The notes: a model not told the origin generated them from the sequence alone. A stretch of 64,000 bases of DNA from Desulfuromonas sp. (GCA_012026975.1 VEPG01000072.1:32822-96821), one strand, 5' to 3'; shown: positions 10,256 through 42,837, numbered from the stretch's first letter. Numbers and translations are program-made.

Positions 10256-11857
10256 GTGCCGGTGAAAAAGCCTTTGCCGCACGATTCTCTTTGCCTTAAC
10301 ATGTTTCGAATGGCCTCCGGCCTAAGGCCGAGGCCGCTGTTTTGCATCCCGAGCAGGATGGAGGAGCTGTTGTCGGATTTTCCCCCGGCCGACCTGACCC
10401 AGCTGGCTCTTCACGGCATTCCCGCCGCCGAGGCCGAGCGCCAGCTGATGCAACTGCGCGGCGGCCAGCAATGGTTGTGCCTGGAGCGCCCCTGCACGGT
10501 CGGCGACGGCATTCGGCAGATTCCCGTCGACCTGCATGAGGTCTTGCAGGAACGTTTCGCCCTGGCGGCCGGAGACGGCCTGGTGGCTCGCTTTGTCCCC
10601 GCCTCCGGGGCGGCTACCCGCATGTTCCAGCCACTGCAGACCGCGTCGGGCGATGGCGGCGAACCGCGGCGCTTTCTGGCGGAACTCGACCGCTTCCCGT
10701 TCACCCCCGCCCTTGCCGCAACGCTCTCCCGCACCGGCCATGCTTTGGAGGCTGCGCGCCGCCGCGCCGATCTGGCAACGCTACGGGCGGCGCTGCTCGA
10801 AGCCCACGGTCTCGACTATGCCCGCTTGCCGAAGGGGCTGCTCGCTTTTCACCGTGCCGGCGACGAGGTGCGCACCGCTTTTGTCGAGCACCTTGCCGAA
10901 GCCGCCCAGCTGGTCGGGGCGGGTCATCCCGCCCGCCTCCACTTTACCGTCTCCCCGGAACACCTGCCCCTCTTTGAACGTCATCTGGCCGAGTGGCGCG
11001 GGGAGCTGGAACGGTGCTACGGTGCCTCCTTTGAGGTGCTCTTTTCAATTCAGGATCCGGCCACCGATACCCTGGCGCTGGCCTCCGATCAGGCTCCGCT
11101 GCGCGATGCCGACGGGCGCCTGCTGTTGCGTCCCGGCGGGCACGGCGCCCTGCTCACCAACCTGGCGGCGCTGGATGCGGAGGTGGTCCTGATCCGCAAC
11201 ATCGACAACGTGGTGCCGGACGCACGCAAGGGCGACAACCTGCTTTGGGACCGGCTGCTCGGCGGTCTGCTGCTGGAGCTGGTGGACGTGCAGCGGGCGC
11301 TGCTGGAACAGTTGCAGCGCACCCCGGGTGATGCCGCGGTGCGGCGTTGGGGGACGCTTTTCCTCCGTGGCGAGCTGGGGGTGAACCTGCCGGATCATGA
11401 TCTGACCAGTGTTGAGCTGACCGTGCTGCTCGATCGGCCGCTGCGGGTCTGCGGTATGGTCAAAAATAGTGGCGAACCGGGGGGCGGGCCGTTCTGGGTG
11501 CGCGGTCGCGACGGAGCCCTGAGCCGGCAGATCGTCGAGTCCTCCCAGGTCGATCGCGATGACCCGGAGCAGGCGGCAACCCTGGCGGCGGCGACGCACT
11601 TCAACCCGGTCGACATGGCCTGCTGCCTGCGCGATGGCAGCGGGTACCGCTACGACCTGGCGCGCTTCATCGACCATGCCGCGGCGATCGTCACGACCAA
11701 GGTGCAAAGCGGCCAGCCGATCCGCATTCTCGAGCGCCCTGGTCTGTGGAACGGTGCCATGGCCGGCTGGCTCACCGTCTTCGTCGAACTCCCGGCGAGC
11801 ACGTTCAATCCGGTTAAAACGGTCTTCGACCTGCTCCGCCCGGCGCACCAGCCATGA
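10256..11857 (+). CDS. DUF4301 family protein, possible nucleotidyltransferase fold
   Basis: A 533-residue soluble protein matching the uncharacterised DUF4301 family. Three motifs stand out: VPASGAATRMF (about residues 118-128), RPGGHGALLTNL and RNIDNVVPD. They resemble in order the nucleotide-binding loop, the GGHG/GNGG loop and the DN motif of UDP-sugar pyrophosphorylases, so I infer a GT-A nucleotidyltransferase-like fold; activity is unproven. The GTG at 10256 has AAGGAG 11 bases upstream. An ATG at 10358 (MEELL...) is closer to where family homology seems to begin but lacks a ribosome site, so the first 34 residues are uncertain. It sits 62 bases upstream of glgX and may be co-transcribed with it. 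Confidence 0.7.
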   Translation: MPVKKPLPHDSLCLNMFRMASGLRPRPLFCIPSRMEELLSDFPPADLTQLALHGIPAAEAERQLMQLRGGQQWLCLERPCTVGDGIRQIPVDLHEVLQERFALAAGDGLVARFVPASGAATRMFQPLQTASGDGGEPRRFLAELDRFPFTPALAATLSRTGHALEAARRRADLATLRAALLEAHGLDYARLPKGLLAFHRAGDEVRTAFVEHLAEAAQLVGAGHPARLHFTVSPEHLPLFERHLAEWRGELERCYGASFEVLFSIQDPATDTLALASDQAPLRDADGRLLLRPGGHGALLTNLAALDAEVVLIRNIDNVVPDARKGDNLLWDRLLGGLLLELVDVQRALLEQLQRTPGDAAVRRWGTLFLRGELGVNLPDHDLTSVELTVLLDRPLRVCGMVKNSGEPGGGPFWVRGRDGALSRQIVESSQVDRDDPEQAATLAAATHFNPVDMACCLRDGSGYRYDLARFIDHAAAIVTTKVQSGQPIRILERPGLWNGAMAGWLTVFVELPASTFNPVKTVFDLLRPAHQP

Positions 11858-11919
11858 AGAACGCCAGACGGGAAACGAGCAAAGCATGACCGCGTTGCCG
11901 ACAAAGACAGGACAGCTGC

Positions 11920-14013
11920 ATGCCGACTGATCGAGACCGCCTGTTGCGCGCCATCGGCGACGATTTTGCCGTGCTGCGCGGCCATCCCCTGCCGTTCGGC
12001 GCCACGCGCCTGGCCGGCGGCGTCAATTTTGCGGTCTTCTCCCGGCATGCCACGACGGTCACGCTGGTGCTGTTCTGGCCGGGCGATTCCGAACCGTTGA
12101 TGGAGTTTCCCCTCGATCGGGAATTGAACCGGACCGGCGATGTCTGGCACGTCTTCGTCCAGGGACTGGCCGCCGGCTTCGAATATGGCTACCGGGCGTC
12201 GCGGGAAGGGGAGCCGGACAGCCCGCTGCACCGTTTCGACCCGGCCGTGGTGCTGCTCGACCCCTACGCCCGGGCACTCAGCGGCCCGTCACTCTGGCGC
12301 GGTGCCAGTCGCGAGGAGTCGCGCGCCGCCGCCTGGCGGGGATTCCTGGTTGACGAAACCTTCGACTGGGAATTCGACCGGCCGCTCAAGCACCATCTGG
12401 CTGACACGGTGATCTACGAACTGCATGTCCGCGGCTTCACCCGCCACCCGTCCAGCGGCGTCGCCCACCCCGGCACCTACCGCGGCGTGATCGAAAAGAT
12501 CCCCTATCTGCAGCAACTCGGCGTCACGGCCGTCGAACTTCTACCGGTGACCGAGTTCGATGAAGCCGACAATTTCCGGGTCAACCCGCAAACCGGCGAC
12601 CCGCTGCACAACCTCTGGGGCTACCACCCCCTGAACTTTTTCGCCCCGAAGGCGGCCTATGCCGTCGATCCCACCCCCGGGGCCGAGTTGCGCGAATTCC
12701 GGGAGATGGTCAAGGCCCTGCACAAGGCCGGGATCGAGGTGATCCTCGACCTGGTGTTCAACCATACCGGCGAGGGGAACGAACGCGGCCGGACCCTCTC
12801 CTTCCGCGGCCTCGACAACAGCGTGTACTATCTGCTCGAGCGCAAAACCGGGGTCTATGCCAACTACTCGGGGTGCGGCAACACCGTCAACTGCAACCAT
12901 CCGGTGGTTCGCGACCTGATCGTCGACGCCCTCTGCTGGTGGGTCACCGAGATGCATGTCGACGGTTTCCGCTTCGATCTCGCCTCGATCCTCAGCCGTG
13001 GCCCGGATGGCGCGCCGCTGGCTACGCCGCCGCTGATCGAACGGATCGCCGCCAACCCGGTACTGGCCGACACCAAGCTGATCGCCGAGGCCTGGGATGC
13101 CGCCGGACTCTACCAGGTCGGCACCTTTCCCAACTTCGGTCGCTGGGCCGAATGGAACGGCAAGTTCCGCGACGATCTGCGCCGCTTCGTGCGCGGCGAT
13201 ACCGGCATGGTGCCGCTGCTGGCCACCCGTCTGGCGGGGAGTTCCGATCTCTACCAGGACGACGGTCGTGCGCCGTTCCACAGCATCAATTTCATCACCT
13301 GCCACGACGGGTTTACCCTGGCCGACCTGGTCAGCTTCGAGAAGAAGCACAACGAAGCCAACGGCGAATTCAACGCCGATGGCAGCGACGTCAACTTCAG
13401 CAGCAACGGTGGCGTCGAGGGGCCGACCGCCGAGCCGGCCATCCGCGCTCGCCGGAGCCGCCGCATCCGCAATTTCGCCGCGCTGCTGCTGCTCTCGCAC
13501 GGGGTGCCGATGTGGCTGGCCGGCGACGAGTTCGGCAACAGCCAGGCGGGGAACAACAACGCCTGGTGCCAGGACAACGCCATCGGCTGGCTCGACTGGG
13601 CCGGCCTGGCGTCAGAGCACAGCCTCTTCGACTTTTGTCGGCACCTGATCCTGTTCCGCCGTCAGCATGCCATGTTGCGCCCGCGGAATTTCGAAGGAGA
13701 GGAGTGTGGCGAGCGGCGTCTGACCTGGCACGGCCCGCAGCTGTTCAAGGTGGACTGGTCGGAAAAATCACATTCCCTGGGGATGCATCTGCAGGGGTTG
13801 AAAGGGGAGGCGGAAATCTACCTGATTGCCCATGCCGCACCGTCGGCGCAGACTTTTGCCCTGCCGAAGCTGGCGCCGGGACGGCAGTGGCGGCGCTTCA
13901 TCGATACGGCGTGCGAACCCGCCAGCGTTGCGCCGGGGGATGAGCCGGTCCTGGCCAGCCAGGGGGGGTATGCGGTATCGGGCGAGTCGGTGGTGGTCCT
14001 GATCGGGGCCTGA
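11920..14013 (+). CDS. glgX: Glycogen debranching enzyme / isoamylase-type alpha-1,6-glucosidase
   Basis: A 697-residue cytoplasmic GH13 enzyme that hydrolyses alpha-1,6 branch points of glycogen or limit dextrins. An N-terminal CBM48-like beta domain (FGATRLAGGVNFAVFSRHA) precedes the TIM barrel. All four GH13 regions are visible: DLVFNHTGEGN, DGFRFDLAS with the nucleophile Asp, IAEAWD with the acid/base Glu, and ITCHDGFTLADL with the transition-state His-Asp pair. The C-terminal beta domain closes the protein. Length is normal. The ATG at 11920 has only a weak upstream ribosome site. It is convergent with the kinase-like gene, whose stop is 11 bases away. Confidence 0.93.
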   Translation: MPTDRDRLLRAIGDDFAVLRGHPLPFGATRLAGGVNFAVFSRHATTVTLVLFWPGDSEPLMEFPLDRELNRTGDVWHVFVQGLAAGFEYGYRASREGEPDSPLHRFDPAVVLLDPYARALSGPSLWRGASREESRAAAWRGFLVDETFDWEFDRPLKHHLADTVIYELHVRGFTRHPSSGVAHPGTYRGVIEKIPYLQQLGVTAVELLPVTEFDEADNFRVNPQTGDPLHNLWGYHPLNFFAPKAAYAVDPTPGAELREFREMVKALHKAGIEVILDLVFNHTGEGNERGRTLSFRGLDNSVYYLLERKTGVYANYSGCGNTVNCNHPVVRDLIVDALCWWVTEMHVDGFRFDLASILSRGPDGAPLATPPLIERIAANPVLADTKLIAEAWDAAGLYQVGTFPNFGRWAEWNGKFRDDLRRFVRGDTGMVPLLATRLAGSSDLYQDDGRAPFHSINFITCHDGFTLADLVSFEKKHNEANGEFNADGSDVNFSSNGGVEGPTAEPAIRARRSRRIRNFAALLLLSHGVPMWLAGDEFGNSQAGNNNAWCQDNAIGWLDWAGLASEHSLFDFCRHLILFRRQHAMLRPRNFEGEECGERRLTWHGPQLFKVDWSEKSHSLGMHLQGLKGEAEIYLIAHAAPSAQTFALPKLAPGRQWRRFIDTACEPASVAPGDEPVLASQGGYAVSGESVVVLIGA

Positions 14014-31854: not shown

Positions 31855-34218
31855 TCATCGATCCAGGTCCGCCAGCACGAAGTCGACCGAACCGAGGATG
31901 GTAATCAGGTCGGAGAGCAGCCACCCCCGCGACATGGCCGGCAGCGCCTGTAGGTGCGGGAAGGACGGGGTGCGGATGCGCAGCCGGTAGGGGACACTGT
32001 CGCCGTCGCTGACCAGATAGAAGCCGCATTCCCCCTTGCTCGATTCGATGGCCCGGTAGCATTCGCCGCGCGGCGGCGAGATGCCGCGGCTGACGTTGAC
32101 GAAATGGTGAATCAGCGTCTCGATGTCATTGAGCCCCGCCTGACGCGGCGGGTAGGTGTAGCGGCAGTCGCGGTTGACGTAGGGGCCGTCCGGCATGTCG
32201 GCGGCCGCCTGCCTGACGATCTTCAGACTCTCGCGCATCTCCTGCAGACGGACGATGAAGCGGCTGAAGCAGTCGCCGTCGCCGTGGGTCGGGATATTGA
32301 AGTCGAAACGCTCGTAACCCGAGTACGGCATCTTCTTGCGCAAATCCCAGGGAATCCCGCAGGCACGCAGATTCGGGCCGGTGATCCCCCAGTCGAGCGC
32401 CTGGTCGAGGGTGGTGATGCCGATCCCCTCGGTACGCTTGCGGAAGATCGCCCCGTCGGTCATCAGCTTGTCGAGATCGTCGACGGTGCGGGCGAAGTCG
32501 CCGGTAAAGGCATCCACCGTCTCGCGCCAGCCGTCGGGGAGATCGGCCGGCAGGCCGCCGATCCGGAACCACGCCGGGTGCATGCGCCCGCCGGTGATCA
32601 GCTCGACGATGTCGAAGATCCGCTCGCGGGCGTCGAAGGCGTAGAAGACCGGGGTCATGGCGCCGACGTCGTGGGCGTAGGTGCCGATCCAGACCAGATG
32701 GTTGGCGAGGCGGAACAGCTCGCAGAGCATCACCCGCACCACCTGCGCCCGCTCCGGCACGGTTACGCCGAGCAGCGTCTCCAGCGGGTAGAGGTAGGCC
32801 AGGTTGTTCTGCACCCCGGAGATGTAGTCGATCCGGTCGGTGTAGGGGATGTATTGGTTCCAGTGCTGGCGCTCGCCGATCTTCTCGGCACCGCGATGGT
32901 GGTAGCCGAGATCGACGTCGATATCCTCGATCTCCTCGCCGTGCAGCTTGAGCACCAGGCGCAGCCCGCCGTGGGTGCCGGGGTGGTGCGGGCCGAGGTT
33001 GAGGATCATGGTGTGCTTGTCGGCCCGCAAGGGGCCGGCGGCCGGCTTCAGCGCCCGGGCCGACTCGACAGTGAACGGCGCCATCTCGGTGGCCCGCGAC
33101 GGATGCTCCTTGCGCAGCGGGTGTCCCTGCCACTGCTCGGCCATGAGGATGCGGCGCAGGTCGGGGTGGCCGGCAAAGCGGATGCCGAACATGTCGAAGG
33201 CCTCGCGCTCGTACCAGTTGGCCGAACTCCAGACCTCCGTGGCGGTCGGCGCCTCCGGGTAGTCGCCGCTAAGGGGCACCTTGACCCGCGCGTAGCCCGG
33301 TTCGTCGAAAGAGAGCAGGTGGTAGACCAGGGTGAAGGGATGTTCCGGCTGGTGCTGCCGTTCGCGTTCGTCGATGGCGGTCAGATCTTCCAGCCGGCGG
33401 AAGCGACGCGGCGCCTGTTCCTTGAGGAAGCGCAGCAAGTTGACGGCATCGCCGGGTTCGGCCCGGAAAGTCGGCATGTCCACGGCTTCGTCCACGCGTA
33501 CCCGACCGCCAAACCGCTCATGCACCGCGCGCTGCAGGTCGGGGGTTGATGCGGCGAATTCGACCCGCGGCTGCGGCGGCCGCCAGATCTCCCCGCCGCG
33601 TTTCCCCCAGAAGTGCGGATGCTGCTGCGAGCTGCCGCGCAGGGGGGTGTTGCCGTAACCGGGGCCGCGCGGATCGCGGCTCTTGCTGAGGCCGTCGATC
33701 AGCACCGGGCCGGTGCTCCCCTCGCAGCCGCCCTGCAGGCCGAAGACCTTGCGGGCCGGCCGTTCTTCCCTGGCGATCTTCTCCTGGAGCAGGAGCAGCC
33801 CCTGGATGAAGGCCTCCGGGCGCGGCGGGCAGCCGGGGACGTAGACGTCCACCGGCAGGATCTGGTTGACCCCCTGCATGACGCTGTAGACGTCGTACAT
33901 CCCGCCGGAGTTGGCGCAGCTCCCCATGGCCATCACCCACTTGGGGTTGGCCATCTGTTCGTAGACGCGCAGGATGGCATCGCCCATGCGCTTGAACGGG
34001 GTGCCGGAGATGATCATCAGGTCGGCTTCGCGGGGGGAGTTGCGCAGCACCTCGGCGCCGAAGCGGGCGAGGTCGAAGCGCGGGGTCATGCTGGTCATCA
34101 TCTCGACGAAGCAGCAGGAGAGGCCGAAGAACATCGGCCAGAGGCTGTTCTTGCGCCCCCAGTTGATGGCGTCGTCGAGGGAGGTGAGGATGATGTTGTC
34201 GGGGAGGGCGTCGTTCAT
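31855..34218 (-). CDS. nuoBCD: Fused NADH-quinone oxidoreductase subunits B, C and D
   Basis: A 787-residue fusion. Residues about 1-170 are Nuo[12 protein letters not shown] and later GSCANSGG and PGCPPRPEA supply the four ligands of cluster N2. Residues about 215-385 are NuoC ([26 protein letters not shown]). The remainder is NuoD ([28 protein letters not shown], and the C-terminal FVLADLDR). It makes the quinone-reducing core. The ATG at 34218 overlaps the nuoA stop (ATGA); the frame stays open upstream through nuoA. NuoBCD fusions are known from Desulfuromonadia-type complex I. Confidence 0.95.
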
Positions 34219-34631
34219 CCGTCGTTTCCTGTACGCTTGCGTCGGTCGGCGCTGGGGCCCCAGTCGAGCCCCCCCGATTTCCACAGGTGGATCAGGCCGA
34301 GGAAGAGGATCAGGATGAAAAAGGCCACCTGGGCGAAGCCGGCCCAGCCGAGCCGGTCGTAGGCCACGGCCCAAGAGACGACGAAGATCATCTCGACGTC
34401 GAAGACAATGAAGAAGATCGCCACCAGGTAGAAGGGGACCGGTTCGCTCAGACGGGCCGGTCCGGTCGGTTCGATCCCCGACTCGTAGGCCTCGTCCTTG
34501 GCCTTGCCGTGGGTGCGCTGGCCGATTCCCCAGGAGAGGAGCATCAGCAGGCCGACCAGGCCGACGGCGATCACCGTGTACAGCCCCAGCGACAGCAGCG
34601 CTTCGAACGATGGCAGGGTCTCGGTCGGCAT
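34215..34631 (-). CDS. nuoA: NADH-quinone oxidoreductase subunit A
   Basis: A 138-residue three-helix membrane subunit and first gene of the operon. The conserved loop [16 protein letters not shown] and [15 protein letters not shown] in helix 2 identify it. The promoter must lie in the 95-base gap to rnhA or further upstream. Confidence 0.95.
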
Positions 34632-35394: not shown

Positions 35395-35574
35395 CCTGGC
35401 AAGATCGGGGAATTCCGAACAGATGTGTTTACGGCAATCGGACGATGCCTATTTTGTCGGCGTCGGCCGGCCTGTTTTTTCGACAGACCGGGGAAAACGT
35501 CCTTGACAGCCCCCCGCGGATTATTTCATCGTGAGACATCGTTTGTTCTGCAATGATGCCACACCGGAGTGTTC

Positions 35575-37545
35575 ATGATCTGGTTTGTCGCAGGGATGCT
35601 GCTGATCGCTTTATCCGGAGTGCCGGGGCTGTTCGCCGACCGGCACGGGCGGGGCGGTGAACGGCTTGCCTGCCTGCTGGTGCTGGCCGGATCGGCAGCT
35701 GTGGCCGGCGGGGTGATCATTGCCCTGGCCTCGGGCGCGCCGGCCCTGCTGACACGGCCATGGACGGTGCCCGGCGGAGAGCTGGCCCTGCGGCTCGACC
35801 CGCTGGCCGCCCTGTTCATCCTGCCGCTCTGCCTGGTGGTCGGAGGCGGTGCAGTCTACGGCCTCGGCTACTGGCCGCAGCGTGAGCACCCCGGCAACGG
35901 CCGGCGCTTCCGGCTCTTCTACGGCCTGCTCGGCGCCTCCATGCTGCTGGTGCTGACCGCCGACAACAGCCTGCTGTTCCTCTTCGCCTGGGAAGTGATG
36001 GCGGTCACCGCATTCTTCCTGGTCACCACCGAGCAGGAGCGCGCCGAAGCGCGCCGGGCCGGCTTCATCTACCTGGTGACGGCCCATGCCGGGGCTCTGG
36101 CACTGTTTGCCCTGTTCGCCCTGCTGGCACAGGAAACCGGCTCCCTGCACTTCCCGGCCGCGGCCAGCCTGGCCGGCGGCAGCGCCACCCTGCTCTTCCT
36201 CCTCGGCCTGTTCGGCTTCGGTTTCAAGGCCGGCCTGATGCCGCTGCACATCTGGCTGCCGATCGCCCACGCCGCCGCCCCCAGCCATGCCTCCGCGCTC
36301 CTGTCGGGAATTGTCCTCAAGACCGGAATCTACGGCCTGCTGCGGCTGACCTCGTTCTTTGCCGTCATCCCCCCCTGGTGGGGGTGGACGGTGTTGTTGC
36401 TGGGGGTGATCTCCGGGGTGTTCGGGGTCGCCCTGGCCCTGGCCCAGCACGACCTCAAGCGCCTGCTGGCCTATCACAGTGTCGAGAACATCGGCATCAT
36501 CACCATCGGCATCGGCCTGGCCCTGCTCGGCCGCAGTTTCGGCCTGCCCGAACTGACGCTGCTGGCGATGTCCGGGGCACTGCTGCACGTGGTCAATCAC
36601 GGCCTGTTCAAATCACTGCTCTTTTACAGTGCGGGATCGGTGGTTCATGCCACCGGCAGCCGCGAGATCGATCACTACGGCGGCCTGCTCCGCCAGCAGC
36701 CATGGACGGCGGTCTGTTTTCTGGCTGGGGCCGTGGCGATCTGCGGCCTGCCGCCGTTCAACGGCTTCGTCAGTGAGTGGCTGATCTACCTGGCGGCGTT
36801 CGGCGCCAGCCGCGGCGAAGGGCTGAACCTGCGCCTGGCGGTGCTCGCTGCGCCGGCCCTGGCGCTGATCGGCGGGCTGGCGGTGGCCTGCTTCGTCAAG
36901 GTGTTCGGTGTAACTTTCCTTGGGGCACCGCGTTCCGCGGCGGCGGCCACCGTCAACCATGATGCCGCGCCAAGCATGCGCGGACCGATGCTGGCCCTGC
37001 TGCTGGCCTGCGCCTGGATCGGCCTGCTCCCCGGCACCCTGGCGCCGCTGCTGCAAAGCGCAGTGGCCACCTGGGTGACGCCGGTGAAGGCCGTCAACCT
37101 GGCGGCACCGCTGGCGCCGCTGCCGCTGGTCGGCGCGACCGGGTGGGTGCTGCTGATCTATCTTGCCGGACTCGGCTGGTGGCTGCATCGCCGCACCCGG
37201 CAGGCGCCGCGCGACGTCTCGACCTGGGGGTGCGGCTATGCCGCGCCGACGCCGCGCATGCAGTACACGGCGTCGTCATTTGCCGACTTGCTGGTCAGCC
37301 AGTTCCGGTTCGGACTATGGACCGAGCGTCATGGCGGCAAGGTCAGCGGGATCTTCCCGACGACGCGGGAGTTTGCCAGCCACACGCCCGACGCGGTGCT
37401 CGACCGGGTGCTGGTGCCGGGGTTCCGCAGTCTGGCCCGCGGCTGCAGCTGGCTACGCGCCCGCGTCCAGAACGGCCGGGTTCCCACCTACCTGCTGTAC
37501 GTGGCCCTGACCCTGCTGACTCTGCTGATCGTGACCGCGCGCTGA
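35575..37545 (+). CDS. ehrA: Ech-hydrogenase-related complex, NuoL/HyfB-like membrane subunit
   Basis: A 656-residue proton-antiporter-like membrane protein. The family core is visible: SLLFLFAWEVMAVTAFFLV (TM5 Glu), KAGLMPLHIWLPIAHAAAPSHASALLSG (TM7 Lys) and HDLKRLLAYHSVENIGIITIG (central Lys/His), like HyfB of hydrogenase-4. The C-terminal extension has a soluble segment and a last anchoring helix. The ATG at 35575 has GGAG at good spacing; a GTG two codons earlier is less likely. It begins a six-gene plus-strand operon for a complex-I-like ion pump. The ehr name follows Geobacter usage. Confidence 0.85.
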   Translation: MIWFVAGMLLIALSGVPGLFADRHGRGGERLACLLVLAGSAAVAGGVIIALASGAPALLTRPWTVPGGELALRLDPLAALFILPLCLVVGGGAVYGLGYWPQREHPGNGRRFRLFYGLLGASMLLVLTADNSLLFLFAWEVMAVTAFFLVTTEQERAEARRAGFIYLVTAHAGALALFALFALLAQETGSLHFPAAASLAGGSATLLFLLGLFGFGFKAGLMPLHIWLPIAHAAAPSHASALLSGIVLKTGIYGLLRLTSFFAVIPPWWGWTVLLLGVISGVFGVALALAQHDLKRLLAYHSVENIGIITIGIGLALLGRSFGLPELTLLAMSGALLHVVNHGLFKSLLFYSAGSVVHATGSREIDHYGGLLRQQPWTAVCFLAGAVAICGLPPFNGFVSEWLIYLAAFGASRGEGLNLRLAVLAAPALALIGGLAVACFVKVFGVTFLGAPRSAAAATVNHDAAPSMRGPMLALLLACAWIGLLPGTLAPLLQSAVATWVTPVKAVNLAAPLAPLPLVGATGWVLLIYLAGLGWWLHRRTRQAPRDVSTWGCGYAAPTPRMQYTASSFADLLVSQFRFGLWTERHGGKVSGIFPTTREFASHTPDAVLDRVLVPGFRSLARGCSWLRARVQNGRVPTYLLYVALTLLTLLIVTAR

Positions 37546-37563
37546 GGGGAGAAACCGACCGTC

Positions 37564-38484
37564 ATGGAAATGCTGGCCCGCACCGCGCTGCATCTGCTCC
37601 TGCTCCTGCTCGTCGCCCCGCTGCTGCAGGGGGTGATCGTCAGGACCAAGGCGTTGTTTGCCGGCCGGGTCGGCGCGCCGCTACTGCAGCCGTATCACGA
37701 TCTGGCCCGGCTGCTGCGCAAGGAATGCGTAGTCAGCCGTACCACCACCTGGGTTTTCCTGGCCGGGCCGGCGGCCGGGGTGGCCGTACCGATCCTCGCC
37801 GCCCTGTTCATGCCGTTCGGCGCGCTCCCCGCCCCGATTGCGTTCACCGGCGACCTGCTGCTCTTCGTCTACCTCTTCGGAGTGGCGCGCTTCTTCACGG
37901 TGGCGTCCGCGCTCGACACCGGTTCGAGTTTCGAAGGGATGGGGGGTGCCCGCGAGGTGACCTTCGCCTGTCTGGCCGAGCCGATCGTCCTCTTCTGCCT
38001 GATCGTCCTGGCCCGCATCGCCGACGCCCTGTCGCTCACCGCACTGCTCGGTCCGCATCTGGCCGCAACCTGGCGCGGCCCCGCCGGGCTTTCTCTCGGT
38101 CTGGTGGTGGTCTGTCTGCTGGTGGTTCTGCTGGTGGAGAATTCGCGCATTCCCTTCGACGACCCGAACACCCACCTGGAACTGACCATGATCCACGAGG
38201 TCATGGTCCTCGACCACAGCGGCCCGCCCCTGGCGATGGTGCTTTATGGAGCAGCGCTTAAACTGATGGTGCTCGGCGCGCCGATCGTGCGCCTGCTCCT
38301 GCCGGTGAACACCGGTTCCTGGGCGGGGGATGCCCTGGTGTTCCTGGGCGGAATGCTGCTGCTGGCGATGCTGATCGGCGTGATTGAATCGATCATGGCG
38401 CGCCTGAGGCTGGTGCGCATCCCGCAGGTGTTGATCGGCACCACCATGCTCTCCGGATTCGCCCTGGTTCTGGTGCTGCGATGA
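37564..38484 (+). CDS. ehrB: Ech-hydrogenase-related complex, NuoH/HyfC-like membrane subunit
   Basis: A 306-residue eight-helix membrane protein homologous to NuoH and HyfC. It has QPYHDLARLLRKE after the first helix, and the acidic loop VENSRIPFDDPNTHLELTMIHEVMVLDHSG, which matches the PFD-P...E.HE signature of hydrogenase-type NuoH homologues. It anchors the soluble module to the ion pumps. Spacing to ehrA is 18 bases; it overlaps ehrC by four. Confidence 0.9.
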   Translation: MEMLARTALHLLLLLLVAPLLQGVIVRTKALFAGRVGAPLLQPYHDLARLLRKECVVSRTTTWVFLAGPAAGVAVPILAALFMPFGALPAPIAFTGDLLLFVYLFGVARFFTVASALDTGSSFEGMGGAREVTFACLAEPIVLFCLIVLARIADALSLTALLGPHLAATWRGPAGLSLGLVVVCLLVVLLVENSRIPFDDPNTHLELTMIHEVMVLDHSGPPLAMVLYGAALKLMVLGAPIVRLLLPVNTGSWAGDALVFLGGMLLLAMLIGVIESIMARLRLVRIPQVLIGTTMLSGFALVLVLR

Positions 38485-39119
38485 CCGAACTGAGCAACCT
38501 CTGTCTGCTGCTGGTCATCCTGGTCAACTTCTTCGCGCTGGGAAGTTCCCGGCTCACCGCCTGCATCCAGGCGGTGGCCCTGCAGGGGGCGGTGCTGGCG
38601 CTGCTGCCGCTGGCCACGCACGGCCTCTCCAGCCACAGCCTGCTCTTGGCCGGCGGCGCCCTGGCCCTCAAGGGGGTCTTTATCCCCTGGCTGTTGCTGC
38701 GGGCGATCCGCGAGGTTCACATCCGCCGCGAGATGGAGCCGCTGATCGGCTTCGTGCCGACACTGCTGCTCGGCGCGCTAGCCACCGCCGGGGCATTCAT
38801 CTTCGCCGACCTGCTGCCGCTGGTCGAGGCGCACCAGGGGGGATTGTTCATCCCGACCTCCCTGGCGACGCTGTTCTCCGGTTTCCTGCTGCTGATCAGC
38901 CGGCGCAAGGCGATCACCCAGGTGGTCGGCTACCTGATCCTGGAGAACGGCATCTTCATCTTCGGTATCCTGCTCGCCGAGGCGATGCCGATGATGGTCG
39001 AGGCCGGCGTGCTCCTCGACCTGTTGGTCGGCGTGTTCGTCATGGGGATCGTCCTCGACCAGATCAACCGCGAATTCTCGACGCTCGACACCGAGCAGCT
39101 CTCCGCCCTGAAGGAATGA
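38481..39119 (+). CDS. ehrC: Ech-hydrogenase-related complex, HyfE-like membrane subunit
   Basis: A 212-residue membrane protein with about six to seven helices matching hydrogenase-4 component E. HyfE proteins merge features of NuoK (VVGYLILENGIFIFGILL, with the conserved Glu) and NuoJ. It ends FSTLDTEQLSALKE, a normal HyfE tail. It overlaps ehrB by ATGA and precedes ehrD by four bases. Confidence 0.88.
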   Translation: MTELSNLCLLLVILVNFFALGSSRLTACIQAVALQGAVLALLPLATHGLSSHSLLLAGGALALKGVFIPWLLLRAIREVHIRREMEPLIGFVPTLLLGALATAGAFIFADLLPLVEAHQGGLFIPTSLATLFSGFLLLISRRKAITQVVGYLILENGIFIFGILLAEAMPMMVEAGVLLDLLVGVFVMGIVLDQINREFSTLDTEQLSALKE

Positions 39120-39123
39120 GACG

Positions 39124-40551
39124 ATGCTCGCCGCCCTGATCCTCCTGCCGCTGCTGCTCGTTCCGGTCGCCTGGCTCATCCCTTGGTACCGGGTGCGCTC
39201 GTGGCTGCTGCCGGTGGCCGGCGCCAGCCATCTGCTGCTGGTGGTGCTGGCGCTGGGGGGCGTTCCCGATGCCGCGCCCGGCGAGTGGATTGGGCTCGAC
39301 CCGCTGTCGCGGCTGGTACTGCTGGTTGCCAGCCCGCTTTACTTGGGTTGCGCCCTGTACGCGGTCGACTACCTGGAGATGCGCCGCGAGCGCGGCAACC
39401 GGACCATGGTCCCCTGCCTGCTGCTGTTCCTCTCCGCGCTGAGCATGGCGGCGATGTCCCGCCATCTTGGCCTGATGTGGCTGGCGCTGGAGACGACGAC
39501 CCTGGCCAGCGCGCCGCTGATCTACTTCAATCGCAACCGCCTCTCCATCGAGGCGACCTGGAAGTATCTGCTGATCTGCTCGGTGGGGATCGCCCTGGCC
39601 ATGCTCGGCCTGCTCTTTTTCGCCTACGCCGCCCTGCGCGGCGGGGTGCCGGTCAGCCTGCTGCTCAGCGATCTGCTGGCCGCTGGTCCGGTTCTCTCCC
39701 GTCCCTGGCTGCATGCCGGCTTCGTCCTGCTGCTGGTCGGTTTCGGGACCAAGATGGGGCTCGCCCCGCTGCACGCCTGGAAGCCCGACGCCTACGGCGA
39801 GGCACCGGGGTTGGTCGGCGCACTGCTCGCCGGGGGGCTGACCAGCCTGGCGTTTCTCGCCGTGCTGCGGACCCTGCAGGTGATGAACGCCGCCGGCGCC
39901 CTGGGAATGGCCCGCCCCCTGCTGCTTGGCCTGGGGCTCCTCTCCCTGCTGCTGGCGGCGCTGTTCATGATGCGCCAGGGCGACTTTAAGCGCATGCTCG
40001 CCTACTCCAGCATCGAGCACATGGGGCTGTTGGCGGTGGGGGTCGGCATCGGCGGGCTGGCCACCTTCGGCGCGCTGCTGCACATGATCAACAACTCGTT
40101 GGCCAAGGGTTGCCTGTTCCTGAGCGCCGGCAACATCCACCGGGCCTTTGCCAGCAAGCGCCTTGCCGACGTGCGCGGGGCTCTGGTCGCCCTGCCGTTC
40201 TCCGGGGCGCTCTTCCTCACGGCCTTCCTGGCGGTGACCGGTACGCCGCCCTTCGGCATTTTCCTGAGCGAATTCACCATTCTGCGCGGAATTTTCGGCG
40301 CCGGCCGGCTCTGGGTCGGCCTGGCGGTGCTGGTGCTGCTGGCCACCGTGTTCATCGGCATGGGCGCCTCGGTACTTGCCGTCTCCCAGGGGGAGCCGAC
40401 CGAGCGCGACATGGCCTTCACCGACCGCTTCCTGCTGGTGGCACCACCGTTGCTGCTGCTGCTGGCCGTCCTGTTCCTCGGTCTGTACATCCCCGAGTCG
40501 CTGCGCCTGCTGCTCGAACAGGCGCAGGCACTGGTCGAGGGCGGGGCATGA
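39124..40551 (+). CDS. ehrD: Ech-hydrogenase-related complex, NuoM/HyfF-like membrane subunit
   Basis: A 475-residue antiporter-like subunit. RHLGLMWLALETTTLASAPLIY carries the TM5 Glu, KMGLAPLHAWKPDAYGEAP the TM7 Lys, and GDFKRMLAYSSIEHMGLLAVG the central Lys, as in HyfF. It would provide a second ion channel in addition to EhrA. It overlaps the large-subunit gene by four bases (ATGA). Confidence 0.9.
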   Translation: MLAALILLPLLLVPVAWLIPWYRVRSWLLPVAGASHLLLVVLALGGVPDAAPGEWIGLDPLSRLVLLVASPLYLGCALYAVDYLEMRRERGNRTMVPCLLLFLSALSMAAMSRHLGLMWLALETTTLASAPLIYFNRNRLSIEATWKYLLICSVGIALAMLGLLFFAYAALRGGVPVSLLLSDLLAAGPVLSRPWLHAGFVLLLVGFGTKMGLAPLHAWKPDAYGEAPGLVGALLAGGLTSLAFLAVLRTLQVMNAAGALGMARPLLLGLGLLSLLLAALFMMRQGDFKRMLAYSSIEHMGLLAVGVGIGGLATFGALLHMINNSLAKGCLFLSAGNIHRAFASKRLADVRGALVALPFSGALFLTAFLAVTGTPPFGIFLSEFTILRGIFGAGRLWVGLAVLVLLATVFIGMGASVLAVSQGEPTERDMAFTDRFLLVAPPLLLLLAVLFLGLYIPESLRLLLEQAQALVEGGA

Positions 40552-42065
40552 GCCCGCTGCGTGCCGCAGTCCCGCTGACCAACGGCGGTGCGATCCCGCT
40601 GGCCGACCTGCCACTGCTCGGCCGGGGGCATTTCACCGGGGCGCTGCTCGCCGAGGTGGCCGAAGGCGCCCGCGTGGCTGCCTACTTTGCCGCCCCCGCC
40701 GGTCGCGTCCTGGAGTTGTACGCCATTCTGGCCCGCGATGCGCATAGCGATCTGGCGGTCCTGCGTACCGAGATCGGCAGCGACTATCCCTCGCTGGCGT
40801 CACGCTGCCCCGAACTGCAGCTGTTCGAGCGCGAGATTGCCGAACAGTACGGCAGTATTCCGACCGCGCATCCCTGGTTCAAGCCGGTCCGGTTTCACCG
40901 CAGCTGGAACGGCCGGGACGCATGGGGACGTGGTGCGGAGCGGCCGCAGCCGGCGGTGCAGGAATTCTATCGAGTGGAAGGGGAGGAGATCCATGAGGTG
41001 GCGGTCGGCCCGGTGCATGCCGGGGTGATCGAGCCGGGACATTTCCGCTTCCAGTGCCACGGCGAACTGGTCATGCACCTGGAGATCGCTCTCGGCTACC
41101 AGCACCGCGATGTCGAGCGGCTGCTCCTCGGCGGGCCGCATCCGGCCACCCCCCACCAACTCGAAACGGTCGCCGGCGACACCAGTATCGGCCATGCCAC
41201 GGCCTGGAGCCATGTCAGCGAGGCCCTGGGCGGCGGCAGTGTGCCGCCGCGGGGCGAGGCGCTGCGGCTGGTGGCCCTGGAACTGGAGCGACTCGCCAAC
41301 CACGTCGGCGATATCGGCGCCCTGGCCGGCGACGTCGGCTTTCTCCCCACCGCGGCCTTTTGCGGCCGGCTGCGCGGCGATTACCTGAATGCTACCGCCG
41401 TTCTGTGCGGCAGCCGCTTCGGCCGCGGCCTGGTGCGCCCCGGCGGCGTGGCCGCCGAGTTGAGTGACGAACAGGCCGCCACCCTGCGCGAGCGCCTGGC
41501 GACCGTGGCTCGCGACACCCGCGGTGCCTTGGAGCTGTTCTTCGACACGCCGTCGGTGCTCGCCCGCCTCGAGGGGACCGGGCATGTCGCCGTCGAGGAT
41601 GCCGCCGCGGTCGGCCTGGTCGGCGTGGCGGCCCGCGCCTGCGGCCTGGTGCGCGATGCGCGCAAGCACCATCCGCTGGGAGGCTACCGTACGGCCGGGA
41701 TCGAACCCGCCGTCAAATGGGGCGGCGATGTCTTCGCCCGGGCCGCGGTCCGGCAGAGGGAGATCGACGACTCGCTGGCCCTGGTCGACCGCACCCTGGC
41801 TGCTCTGCCACCGGGACCGGTGCGGGCGGAAAACGGGAGCCCGCGGCCCAAATCGCTGGCGGTCGCCCTGGTGGAAGGGTGGCGGGGGGAGGTCGTTCAT
41901 GCCGCCCTGACCGATGCTGCCGGCCGCTTCTCCCGCTACAAGATCGTCGATCCGTCGTTCCGCAACTGGACCGGGTTGGCGCTGGCGCTGCGCGGCGAGC
42001 AGATCTCCGACTTTCCGCTGTGCAACAAGAGTTTCAACCTGTCGTATTGCGGATTTGACCTATGA
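40548..42065 (+). CDS. ehrL: Ech-hydrogenase-related complex large subunit, NiFe ligands missing
   Basis: A 505-residue fusion of a NuoC-like N-terminal domain (EIAEQYGSIPTAHPWFKPV) and a NuoD / hydrogenase-large-subunit-like domain (ALGYQHRDVERLL). In true group 4 [NiFe] hydrogenases the L1 motif after this point is CGxC; here residues 207-216 read TVAGDTSIGH, with Ala209 and Thr212 in place of the two Cys. The C-terminal L2 motif DPCxxC is replaced by CNKSFNLSYCG (Cys492 and Cys501, nine apart). The NiFe centre therefore cannot form in the usual way, as known for Ehr complexes. The start at 40548 is fixed by the ATGA overlap with ehrD. Confidence 0.88.
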   Translation: MSPLRAAVPLTNGGAIPLADLPLLGRGHFTGALLAEVAEGARVAAYFAAPAGRVLELYAILARDAHSDLAVLRTEIGSDYPSLASRCPELQLFEREIAEQYGSIPTAHPWFKPVRFHRSWNGRDAWGRGAERPQPAVQEFYRVEGEEIHEVAVGPVHAGVIEPGHFRFQCHGELVMHLEIALGYQHRDVERLLLGGPHPATPHQLETVAGDTSIGHATAWSHVSEALGGGSVPPRGEALRLVALELERLANHVGDIGALAGDVGFLPTAAFCGRLRGDYLNATAVLCGSRFGRGLVRPGGVAAELSDEQAATLRERLATVARDTRGALELFFDTPSVLARLEGTGHVAVEDAAAVGLVGVAARACGLVRDARKHHPLGGYRTAGIEPAVKWGGDVFARAAVRQREIDDSLALVDRTLAALPPGPVRAENGSPRPKSLAVALVEGWRGEVVHAALTDAAGRFSRYKIVDPSFRNWTGLALALRGEQISDFPLCNKSFNLSYCGFDL

Positions 42066-42081
42066 GACGACGGTCATCGCC

Positions 42082-42837
42082 ATGCTGAAGATTCTCCATG
42101 AACGCCTTCGTCAGGGGCACCGCACCGCCAGCTATCCCAGCGAGGCACCGGTGCTCCCCGAGCGTTTCCGCGGCGCCCCGCGGATCGTCCCGGAACGTTG
42201 CCGCGAAGGCTGCGGCGACTGCCTCGATGCCTGTCCGTTCGGGGCCATCGAAGGCACCGCCGGCGGTCCACGGCTCGACCTCGGCCGCTGCATCTTCTGC
42301 GGCGCATGCGCCGCCGCCTGCCCGCACGGCGTATTGGAATTCTCCCGCGACCATCGTCTGGCCGCGCGTCGCCGCGAAGACCTGCTCGCCGGTGCCGAAG
42401 GGCACCGCCTGGCTTATGCCCTGGACGGGGAGATGCGCCGCCTGTTCGGGCGATCGCTGAAACTGCGCCAGGTTTCGGCGGGGGGGTGCAACGCCTGCGA
42501 GGCCGACCTCAACGTCCTCAACACCCTGGTCTTCGACCTGGCCCGCTTCGGCATTCAGTTTGTCGCCTCGCCGCGCCACGCCGACGGCCTGATGGTCACT
42601 GGGCCGGTCACCGAGAACATGCGTTTCGCCCTGCTCGAAAGCTACGCCGCGCTCCCCGCGCCGAAACTGGTGATCGCCTCGGGCGCCTGCGCCATCGCCG
42701 GTGGCCCGTTCCGCGGTTCTCCCGAATGCCACGACGGCATCGGCGACCTGCTCCCGGTCGACCTCTACATTCCCGGCTGTCCACCGCATCCCTACACCGC
42801 CCTCGACGGCCTGCTGCGCCTGCTCGGCCGGCTGTGA
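42082..42837 (+). CDS. ehrS: Ech-hydrogenase-related complex small subunit fused to a 2x[4Fe-4S] ferredoxin
   Basis: A 251-residue fusion. The N-terminal ferredoxin part (about 36-90) has two four-Cys motifs, CREGCGDCLDACP and CIFCGACAAACPHG. The C-terminal part is NuoB / small-subunit-like with GGCNACEADLN, SGACAIAGGPF and PGCPPHPYTA, supplying the four ligands of the N2-like proximal cluster in the CxxC form. It corresponds to HyfH plus HyfI in one chain. It follows ehrL by 16 bases and ends the operon just before a strong terminator. Confidence 0.88.
   Translation: MLKILHERLRQGHRTASYPSEAPVLPERFRGAPRIVPERCREGCGDCLDACPFGAIEGTAGGPRLDLGRCIFCGACAAACPHGVLEFSRDHRLAARRREDLLAGAEGHRLAYALDGEMRRLFGRSLKLRQVSAGGCNACEADLNVLNTLVFDLARFGIQFVASPRHADGLMVTGPVTENMRFALLESYAALPAPKLVIASGACAIAGGPFRGSPECHDGIGDLLPVDLYIPGCPPHPYTALDGLLRLLGRL

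Follow-up and report, generated by a model that had tools for sequence, protein, structure and literature searches.

The window analysed here, a 64,000-nucleotide stretch of Desulfuromonas sp. DNA (GCA_012026975.1, VEPG01000072.1:32822-96821), carries six genes, ehrABCDLS, that lie contiguous, intact, and in the same direction at 35569-42837 (+). Judged by its gene content, by the loss of four NiFe ligands from its large subunit EhrL, and by kinship to annotated Ehr-bearing genera, the locus is an Ehr complex, as the original prediction made from this DNA had proposed. The host genome is a 2.8-Mb assembly from a Desulfuromonadales lineage related to Geobacter. Ehr complexes are known from Coppi 2005 and Marreiros 2013, as these are cited in PMC6688271 and PMC10284858, and are recognized by a group 4-type large subunit without the Cys that NiFe binding requires (PMC6349859, PMC10284858); the core finding is already known. 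What appears to be new with respect to the literature that we searched is the residue-level separation of Ehr from complex I and from the membrane-bound sulfane sulfur reductase (MBS), the exchange of the canopy Asp for Asn, the presence of Ehr in genomes with no clear NiFe hydrogenase, its linkage to a gene encoding a helix-turn-helix (HTH)-EIIA fusion, and a sister operon, Ehr2.

The ehrL gene (40548..42065, +) encodes a HycE/NuoCD-like large subunit of 505 residues, as established by a Complex1_49kDa match, alignment (phmmer E value against HycE, 1.8e-47), and an AlphaFold2 model. The coordinates, frame, and residue numbers of the original prediction hold, with V208-A209-G210-D211-T212 and C492-NKSFNLSY-C501-G at the expected places, and so does its statement that CGxC and DPCxxC are replaced. 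Alignment with HycE, whose NiFe ligands are C241, C244, C531, and C534, puts EhrL A209, T212, S499, and G502 at these positions. The first CGxC motif thus gives way to A209-G210-D211-T212 (41172..41183, +), and SLDPCxxC to F489-L505 (FPLCNKSFNLSYCGFDL; 42012..42062, +). In 108 EhrL homologues, the nearest named of which are 90% (a Desulfuromonadales metagenome-assembled genome [MAG]) and 84% (a deltaproteobacterial MAG) identical, the former ligand columns hold Ala (105 sequences; otherwise Gly or Ser), Thr or Ser, Ser, and Gly, and Cys in none, whereas the true group 4 hydrogenases that we aligned from genomes of the same order retain all four Cys. Ligand loss is therefore a family trait, shared with the known Ehr complexes as had been predicted, and neither a sequencing error nor chance. 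In addition, the C terminus coincides with HycE R537 in 107 of the 108 homologues and is cut off by a contig end in the other. R537 is the last residue of HycE after cleavage by HycI, so that nothing in the sequence calls for peptidase maturation of EhrL.

The AlphaFold2 model of EhrL (mean predicted local distance difference test [pLDDT] score, 88) is closest to HycE (7z0s_E; Z, 42; root mean square deviation, 2.8 over 481 residues; VIA-align), followed by mycobacterial complex I NuoD (Z, 40.4; 347 residues), and EhrL also matches the MBS large-subunit chain 6u8y_L. The original prediction had suggested structure prediction of EhrL-EhrS, together with alignment to HycE and NuoD, as a check; the alignment bears it out, and the EhrL model is of low confidence in the pocket loop and tail.

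Assembly of Ehr is independent of NiFe maturation. Five Ehr-bearing genomes that are 95 to 100% complete lack HypD, and a search of these five for NiFe large subunits returned only weak matches, one of them the large subunit of Ehr2, and no clear NiFe hydrogenase. Hence, Ehr is made without the NiFe assembly line, and a dependence on HypD among the relatives could be rejected. The host of the window does contain HypD, but it also carries three true NiFe hydrogenases elsewhere, so that HypD in this genome says nothing about Ehr. Likewise, the identity of the complex as a group 4 [NiFe] hydrogenase was rejected, given that the two CxxC motifs, the C-terminal extension, and the HypA-F dependence are all missing.

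Conservation indicates that the emptied pocket is preserved and not decaying. Both AGDT and DFPLCNKSFNLSYCGxDL are almost unvarying in the homologues, across phyla. Mean column entropy is 1.32 bits for EhrL overall, 0.06 bits for the loop at 153-170, and 0.12 bits for residues 486-505, and the last 20 residues rank 8th of 486 entropy windows. Among near relatives, the dN/dS ratio (omega) calculated by NG86 is 0.14 to 0.28 for EhrL and 0.07 to 0.28 for the other subunits, whereas YN00 gives 0.03 to 0.13 where computable for the two closest relatives. For EhrL in close relatives, omega is 0.14 to 0.19 by NG86 and 0.07 to 0.08 by YN00, so that EhrL falls within the range of the other Ehr subunits and of neighbouring housekeeping genes. 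Such strict preservation across phyla suggests that the pocket must do something. A 2026 paper called the Ehr complex of Geobacter sulfurreducens nonfunctional because its NiFe centre is missing (PMC13194489). The invariant motifs and omega values far below 1 argue against that claim. In this light we consider it unlikely that Ehr is a redox-silent relic, a product of drift (the view taken of G. sulfurreducens KN400), or a passive Mrp-like antiporter. A relic would fit the Geobacter-type EhrS proteins (L079, L083, and L086; L numbers are our labels for relatives' loci), which have lost several Cys of one ferredoxin cluster, and a passive antiporter would fit the role in pH homeostasis suggested for Methylacidiphilum (PMC6688271), but strong purifying selection on both EhrL and EhrS, pocket motifs invariant across phyla, and proximal-cluster Cys conserved at 99 to 100% are difficult to reconcile with either.

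The structure of the E. coli formate hydrogenlyase (FHL) assigned a loop His, a substrate-proton Glu, a canopy Arg, and several route residues to proton transfer (PMC9474812). Their counterparts in EhrL are H157 (loop His), E162 (substrate-proton Glu), R446 (canopy Arg), and H252, E405, and R363 (route). H157, E162, H252, and E405 are each present in 108/108 homologues and R446 in 107/107, while R363 is Arg or Lys. H157 and E162 lie in the conserved beta1-beta2 loop at 152-173 (GPVHAGxIEPGHFRFQCxGE; 41001..41066, +), which at position 161 lacks the His of complex I. In contrast, the canopy Asp (HycE Asp529), strictly conserved according to the same paper, is Asn497 in 100/108 EhrL sequences and in all six Ehr2 sequences.

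Compared with FHL and hydrogenase 4 (HycE, HyfG; group 4a), Ehr thus shares the NuoC+NuoD-type fusion, the EPGHFR loop with E162, the canopy Arg, and a four-Cys proximal cluster; it differs in lacking the four NiFe Cys, the canopy Asp, the peptidase-cleaved C-terminal extension, and genes for HycB and FdhF in its operon, and in having a single fused Fe-S subunit. With the quinone module of complex I (NuoB, NuoCD, NuoH, NuoL/M/N) it has the fold and the membrane coupling parts in common, and the canopy position N251 of EhrL is as in the window's own NuoBCD. However, the quinone-binding His and Tyr (E. coli H224 and Y273) are I161 and G210 in EhrL, the ehr operon lacks NuoEFG, and the small subunit has CxxC (proximal motif GGCNACE, gap-free with respect to HyfI/HycG), unlike the tandem Cys of NuoB (GLSCC), which is three residues shorter there. 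Complex I identity was rejected because both the quinone His/Tyr and the tandem N2 Cys are missing. The window's NuoBCD is a single open reading frame at 31855-34374 (-) in which NuoB, NuoC, and NuoD are fused; it adjoins nuoA and lies near the ehr operon. A second complex I-like gene set resides on another contig of the host genome (G000:C60).

Desulfuromonadales often reduce sulfur, and Ehr might act like MBS/Mbx of Pyrococcus, with an incompletely ligated proximal Fe-S cluster that reduces polysulfide or other sulfane sulfur. MBS is indeed a characterized ferredoxin-driven relative in which part of the NiFe site is lost, a group 4-like complex that reduces a small molecule in its chamber. 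The residues of MBS, for which we rely on PMC7684303, make this very unlikely, though: MBS has a proximal loop shortened by three residues and a three-Cys cluster with one Fe lacking a Cys, it has lost the loop Glu (MbhL E21), and MbsL keeps two of the four NiFe Cys, whereas EhrS has the full four-Cys loop and EhrL retains E162 and none of the NiFe Cys. Moreover, some of the genomes that carry Ehr have been assigned to aerobic organisms, including methanotrophs and comammox Nitrospira (PMC6688271, PMC10284858). MBS/Mbx identity was rejected because EhrS does not have the shortened three-Cys loop. Taken at the level of aligned residues, the catalytic details of Ehr match none of hydrogenase, complex I, and MBS.

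It had also been predicted that the two C-terminal Cys of EhrL might bind something together, and this did not stand. C501 falls on an x of the former CxxC and C492 lies seven residues N-terminal of the first C-terminal ligand position; C501 is near-invariant in EhrL, while C492 is replaced by Asn in 4/108 and by Ile in 2/108 homologues. The two are not co-conserved and were rejected as a metal-binding pair. More generally, C501 is Ala or Ser and C170 Ala or Thr in Ehr2, and the otherwise well-conserved Cys 170, 272, and 287 are not constant in Ehr2 or in the most deeply branching EhrL, so that a shared Cys-based metal site seems unlikely as the common function. We consider it improbable that the pocket holds another metal, for instance Zn or Fe, with residues like C501, D211, H216, or E162 serving as new ligands. 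D211 is without variation and H216 and C501 are almost so, but no Cys site spans all Ehr, and the pocket loop on which the geometry of such a site would depend is poorly modeled.

The remaining subunits bear out the predicted completeness of the hydrogenase-4-like machine, all being present and co-directional. EhrA (35569..37545, +; 658 residues; Proton_antipo_M, 2.6e-54) is a HyfB/NuoL-like antiporter subunit whose top NCBIfam model, hydrogenase 4 subunit B, scores under its cut-off and whose ion-path residues E142, K220, K251, H340, H344, K348, and E403 are conserved at 99 to 100% in 68 homologues. EhrB (37564..38484, +; 306 residues; NADHdh, 3.6e-30) is the HyfC/HycD/NuoH-like membrane anchor, with acidic residues E131, E139, E192, D199, E206, and E212 invariant in 72 homologues. 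The HyfE/NuoK-like membrane subunit EhrC (38481..39119, +; 212 residues; Oxidored_q2, 3.7e-5) matches the NCBIfam hydrogenase 4 membrane subunit (1.4e-24, under cut-off). EhrD (39124..40551, +; 475 residues; Proton_antipo_M, 1.3e-46), with hydrogenase 4 subunit F as top NCBIfam model, is a HyfF-like antiporter subunit in which E123, K210, and K328 do not vary in 75 homologues. Two antiporter-type subunits, as originally described, is correct for the window but not for many relatives, which carry a third, EhrA2; the window's genus has a single EhrA and differs from these relatives also in lacking the HTH-EIIA gene.

The last gene, ehrS (42082..42837, +), fuses a two-cluster ferredoxin domain to a HycG/HyfI-like small subunit (Oxidored_q6, 4.4e-26; Fer4_7, 9.3e-13). 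We take the ATG at 42082 as its start, although a longer reading frame opens upstream, and number its Cys from 42085. In 80 homologues the proximal-cluster Cys 135, 138, 202, and 232 are conserved at 99 to 100% and the ferredoxin-domain Cys 50, 69, 72, and 75 at 100%, whereas the Cys of the first ferredoxin-type cluster, complete in the window, are present in only 75 to 81% of relatives. With its proximal-cluster and ferredoxin-domain Cys retained, the redox wire is intact. In the Geobacter-type loci L079, L083, L086, L074, and L082, a gene for an IclR-type regulator sits between ehrL and ehrS, and the EhrS proteins of this group lack Cys of one ferredoxin cluster.

One of these loci, in a Geobacter MAG, also has a molybdopterin oxidoreductase gene at this place (L082:10372-12312), and this touches on the proposal that Ehr receives its electrons from a docked formate dehydrogenase, as put forward for Margulisbacteria and Saganbacteria (PMC6349859). 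Ehr subunits are abundant in G. sulfurreducens on formate (PMC7894505), and the nearest structural relative of EhrL is the FHL subunit HycE. However, cytoplasmic FdhA (TIGR01591 over cut-off) is distributed independently of Ehr in 58 relatives, occurring in 8/33 with and 6/25 without it (odds ratio, 1.01; P = 1), and co-occurrence was rejected. In the window's genus TIGR01591 is over cut-off in 0/3 genomes, the molybdopterin oxidoreductase gene is seen at L082 alone among 80 loci and scores under the FdhA cut-off, and the ehr operon lacks HycB. Formate dehydrogenase as the dedicated partner therefore appears quite unlikely.

In a tree of large subunits, EhrL groups apart from hydrogenases and complex I, with Geobacter argillaceus (L079) and Desulfuromusa (L059) on one side of a branch with 100/100 support; G. 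sulfurreducens GSU0739-0745 itself stood outside this tree. That system and others resemble the window in having EhrA-D, L, and S, in having lost the NiFe motifs, and in their kinship to group 4 (hydrogenase-4/FHL), and the EhrL proteins of the Geobacter loci in our set are 54 to 60% identical to that of the window. The sister operon Ehr2, a second hydrogenase-4-like operon without NiFe ligands (SGDS, NKSVNGSYxGxDL), occurs in tandem with ehr or alone (L064:10660-17350, L113, L114, L115, L133, and L135). Its large subunit forms one clade with EhrL (support, 100/99) and shares the invariant GPVHAGIIEPGHFRF loop, GD[ST], and the NKSxNxSYxGxDL ending, but is only 35 to 39% identical to EhrL, has SGDS in place of AGDT, and lacks C170 and C501. 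In L114 the ehr and Ehr2 operons are separated by a gene for a DUF815 AAA ATPase (11165-12169, -), an observation that also refers to the start of the downstream genes in L095 and L109. Two loci have a second EhrL/EhrS pair, 51 to 53% identical to the window's, which precedes the main ehrL by about 6 kb (L048:6-2045, L049:2-2010) and suggests that the ehr operon has been duplicated in Desulfobulbales.

How might such a complex work? The original prediction left donor and acceptor open, and the literature agrees (PMC10284858, PMC6349859, PMC10432482). From the retained clusters and ion-path charges, we consider Ehr to be probably a redox-driven ion pump. Electrons would enter the ferredoxin domain of EhrS from a donor of low potential, reduced ferredoxin being the likeliest; that the donor is of the ferredoxin type is something we favor, if with less assurance. 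Electrons would then cross the proximal [4Fe-4S] cluster of EhrS to a small protonatable molecule in the former NiFe cavity of EhrL, with protons supplied by E162 and the conserved R446, H252, E405, and R363, and EhrA and EhrD, the antiporter-like subunits, would be coupled to this chemistry through the membrane anchor EhrB. The acceptor would be neither held by the His/Tyr pair of complex I nor reduced by an MBS-type three-Cys cluster. Our first guess is menaquinone, bound differently than in complex I, yet a quinone is somewhat less likely to be the acceptor than some other molecule. The pump may also work in reverse in the cell, using an ion gradient to reduce ferredoxin, and Ehr may thus either oxidize or make ferredoxin. 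In G. sulfurreducens, Ehr proteins are raised on formate, where the authors mention reverse electron transport (PMC7894505), and in syntrophic coculture (PMC8691401). RnfC over cut-off was not found in the host genome, which leaves Ehr and complex I as its candidate low-potential pumps.

Several points weigh against this redox-driven pump with small-molecule reduction in the former NiFe pocket. The EhrL model has a pLDDT below 50 at 155-165 and 502-505, that is, in the pocket itself, and Ile161 and Gly210 in place of the complex I quinone ligands weaken the case for a quinone acceptor. No redox partner gene recurs downstream of ehrS in the 80 loci, nor is a donor or acceptor gene regularly linked to them; the molybdopterin oxidoreductase being a single case, an electron partner could not be derived from the neighbourhood. 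Across the 58 relatives, Ehr is unrelated to Rnf (odds ratio, 0.86; P = 1), so that complementarity with Rnf was rejected and lends no support to a ferredoxin-pump role. Furthermore, we found no experiment on Ehr in the literature searched. Taken as a whole, from ferredoxin-like donor to small-molecule reduction, we regard the pump model as evenly poised between right and wrong.

A clue to physiology may come from the neighbourhood. In 48 of 80 loci, ehr lies beside a gene that fuses an excisionase-type HTH (HTH_17) to an EIIA domain of the phosphotransferase system, EIIA-Ntr-like, as in L059:253-927 (+) and L079:1473-2153 (-). These loci belong to Desulfuromonadales, Geobacter, Desulfobulbales, Planctomycetes, Verrucomicrobia, a spirochaete, and others, and the gene is also found immediately upstream of Ehr2 operons; it was not found in the window's genus. 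Among the 58 relatives, 28 have both Ehr or Ehr2 and the HTH-EIIA gene, 5 and 5 have only one of them, and 20 have neither (Fisher P = 8e-7, uncorrected for kinship). In four Ehr-less relatives (L129, L130, L131, and L132), the HTH-EIIA gene is directly followed by a gene for a SulP transporter whose top model is BicA (465 bits, under the cut-off of 880); a fifth has a DUF1275 gene at this place. In E. coli, a K+/H+ antiporter is bound and inhibited by PtsN in its unphosphorylated form (PMC11808508), a precedent for control of ion transport by EIIA-Ntr, and by analogy we infer that EIIA-Ntr may control Ehr. A bolder and quite improbable extension, building on the kept loop Glu, the canopy exchange, and the invariant GD and NKSxNxSYxGxDL, is that the pocket has turned into a new proton-coupled site whose acceptor is not H+, a complex I-style quinone, or sulfane sulfur; in most lineages the operon would answer to an HTH-EIIA(Ntr) switch shared with BicA-like bicarbonate transporters, and the reversed pump would provide reduced ferredoxin for carboxylations.

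In summary, Ehr is one of the remaining branches of the complex I superfamily without an assigned reaction, and its hosts include iron reducers, Planctomycetes, and Verrucomicrobia; published work adds comammox Nitrospira, methanotrophs, and ammonia-oxidising archaea. Its conservation speaks against dismissal as a dead hydrogenase. The residue map, with E162 kept, the canopy Asp exchanged for Asn, no quinone His/Tyr, and a four-Cys cluster, sets Ehr apart from hydrogenases, complex I, and MBS and points to mutants that could settle its chemistry, and the linkage to HTH-EIIA offers a physiological handle on the complex.

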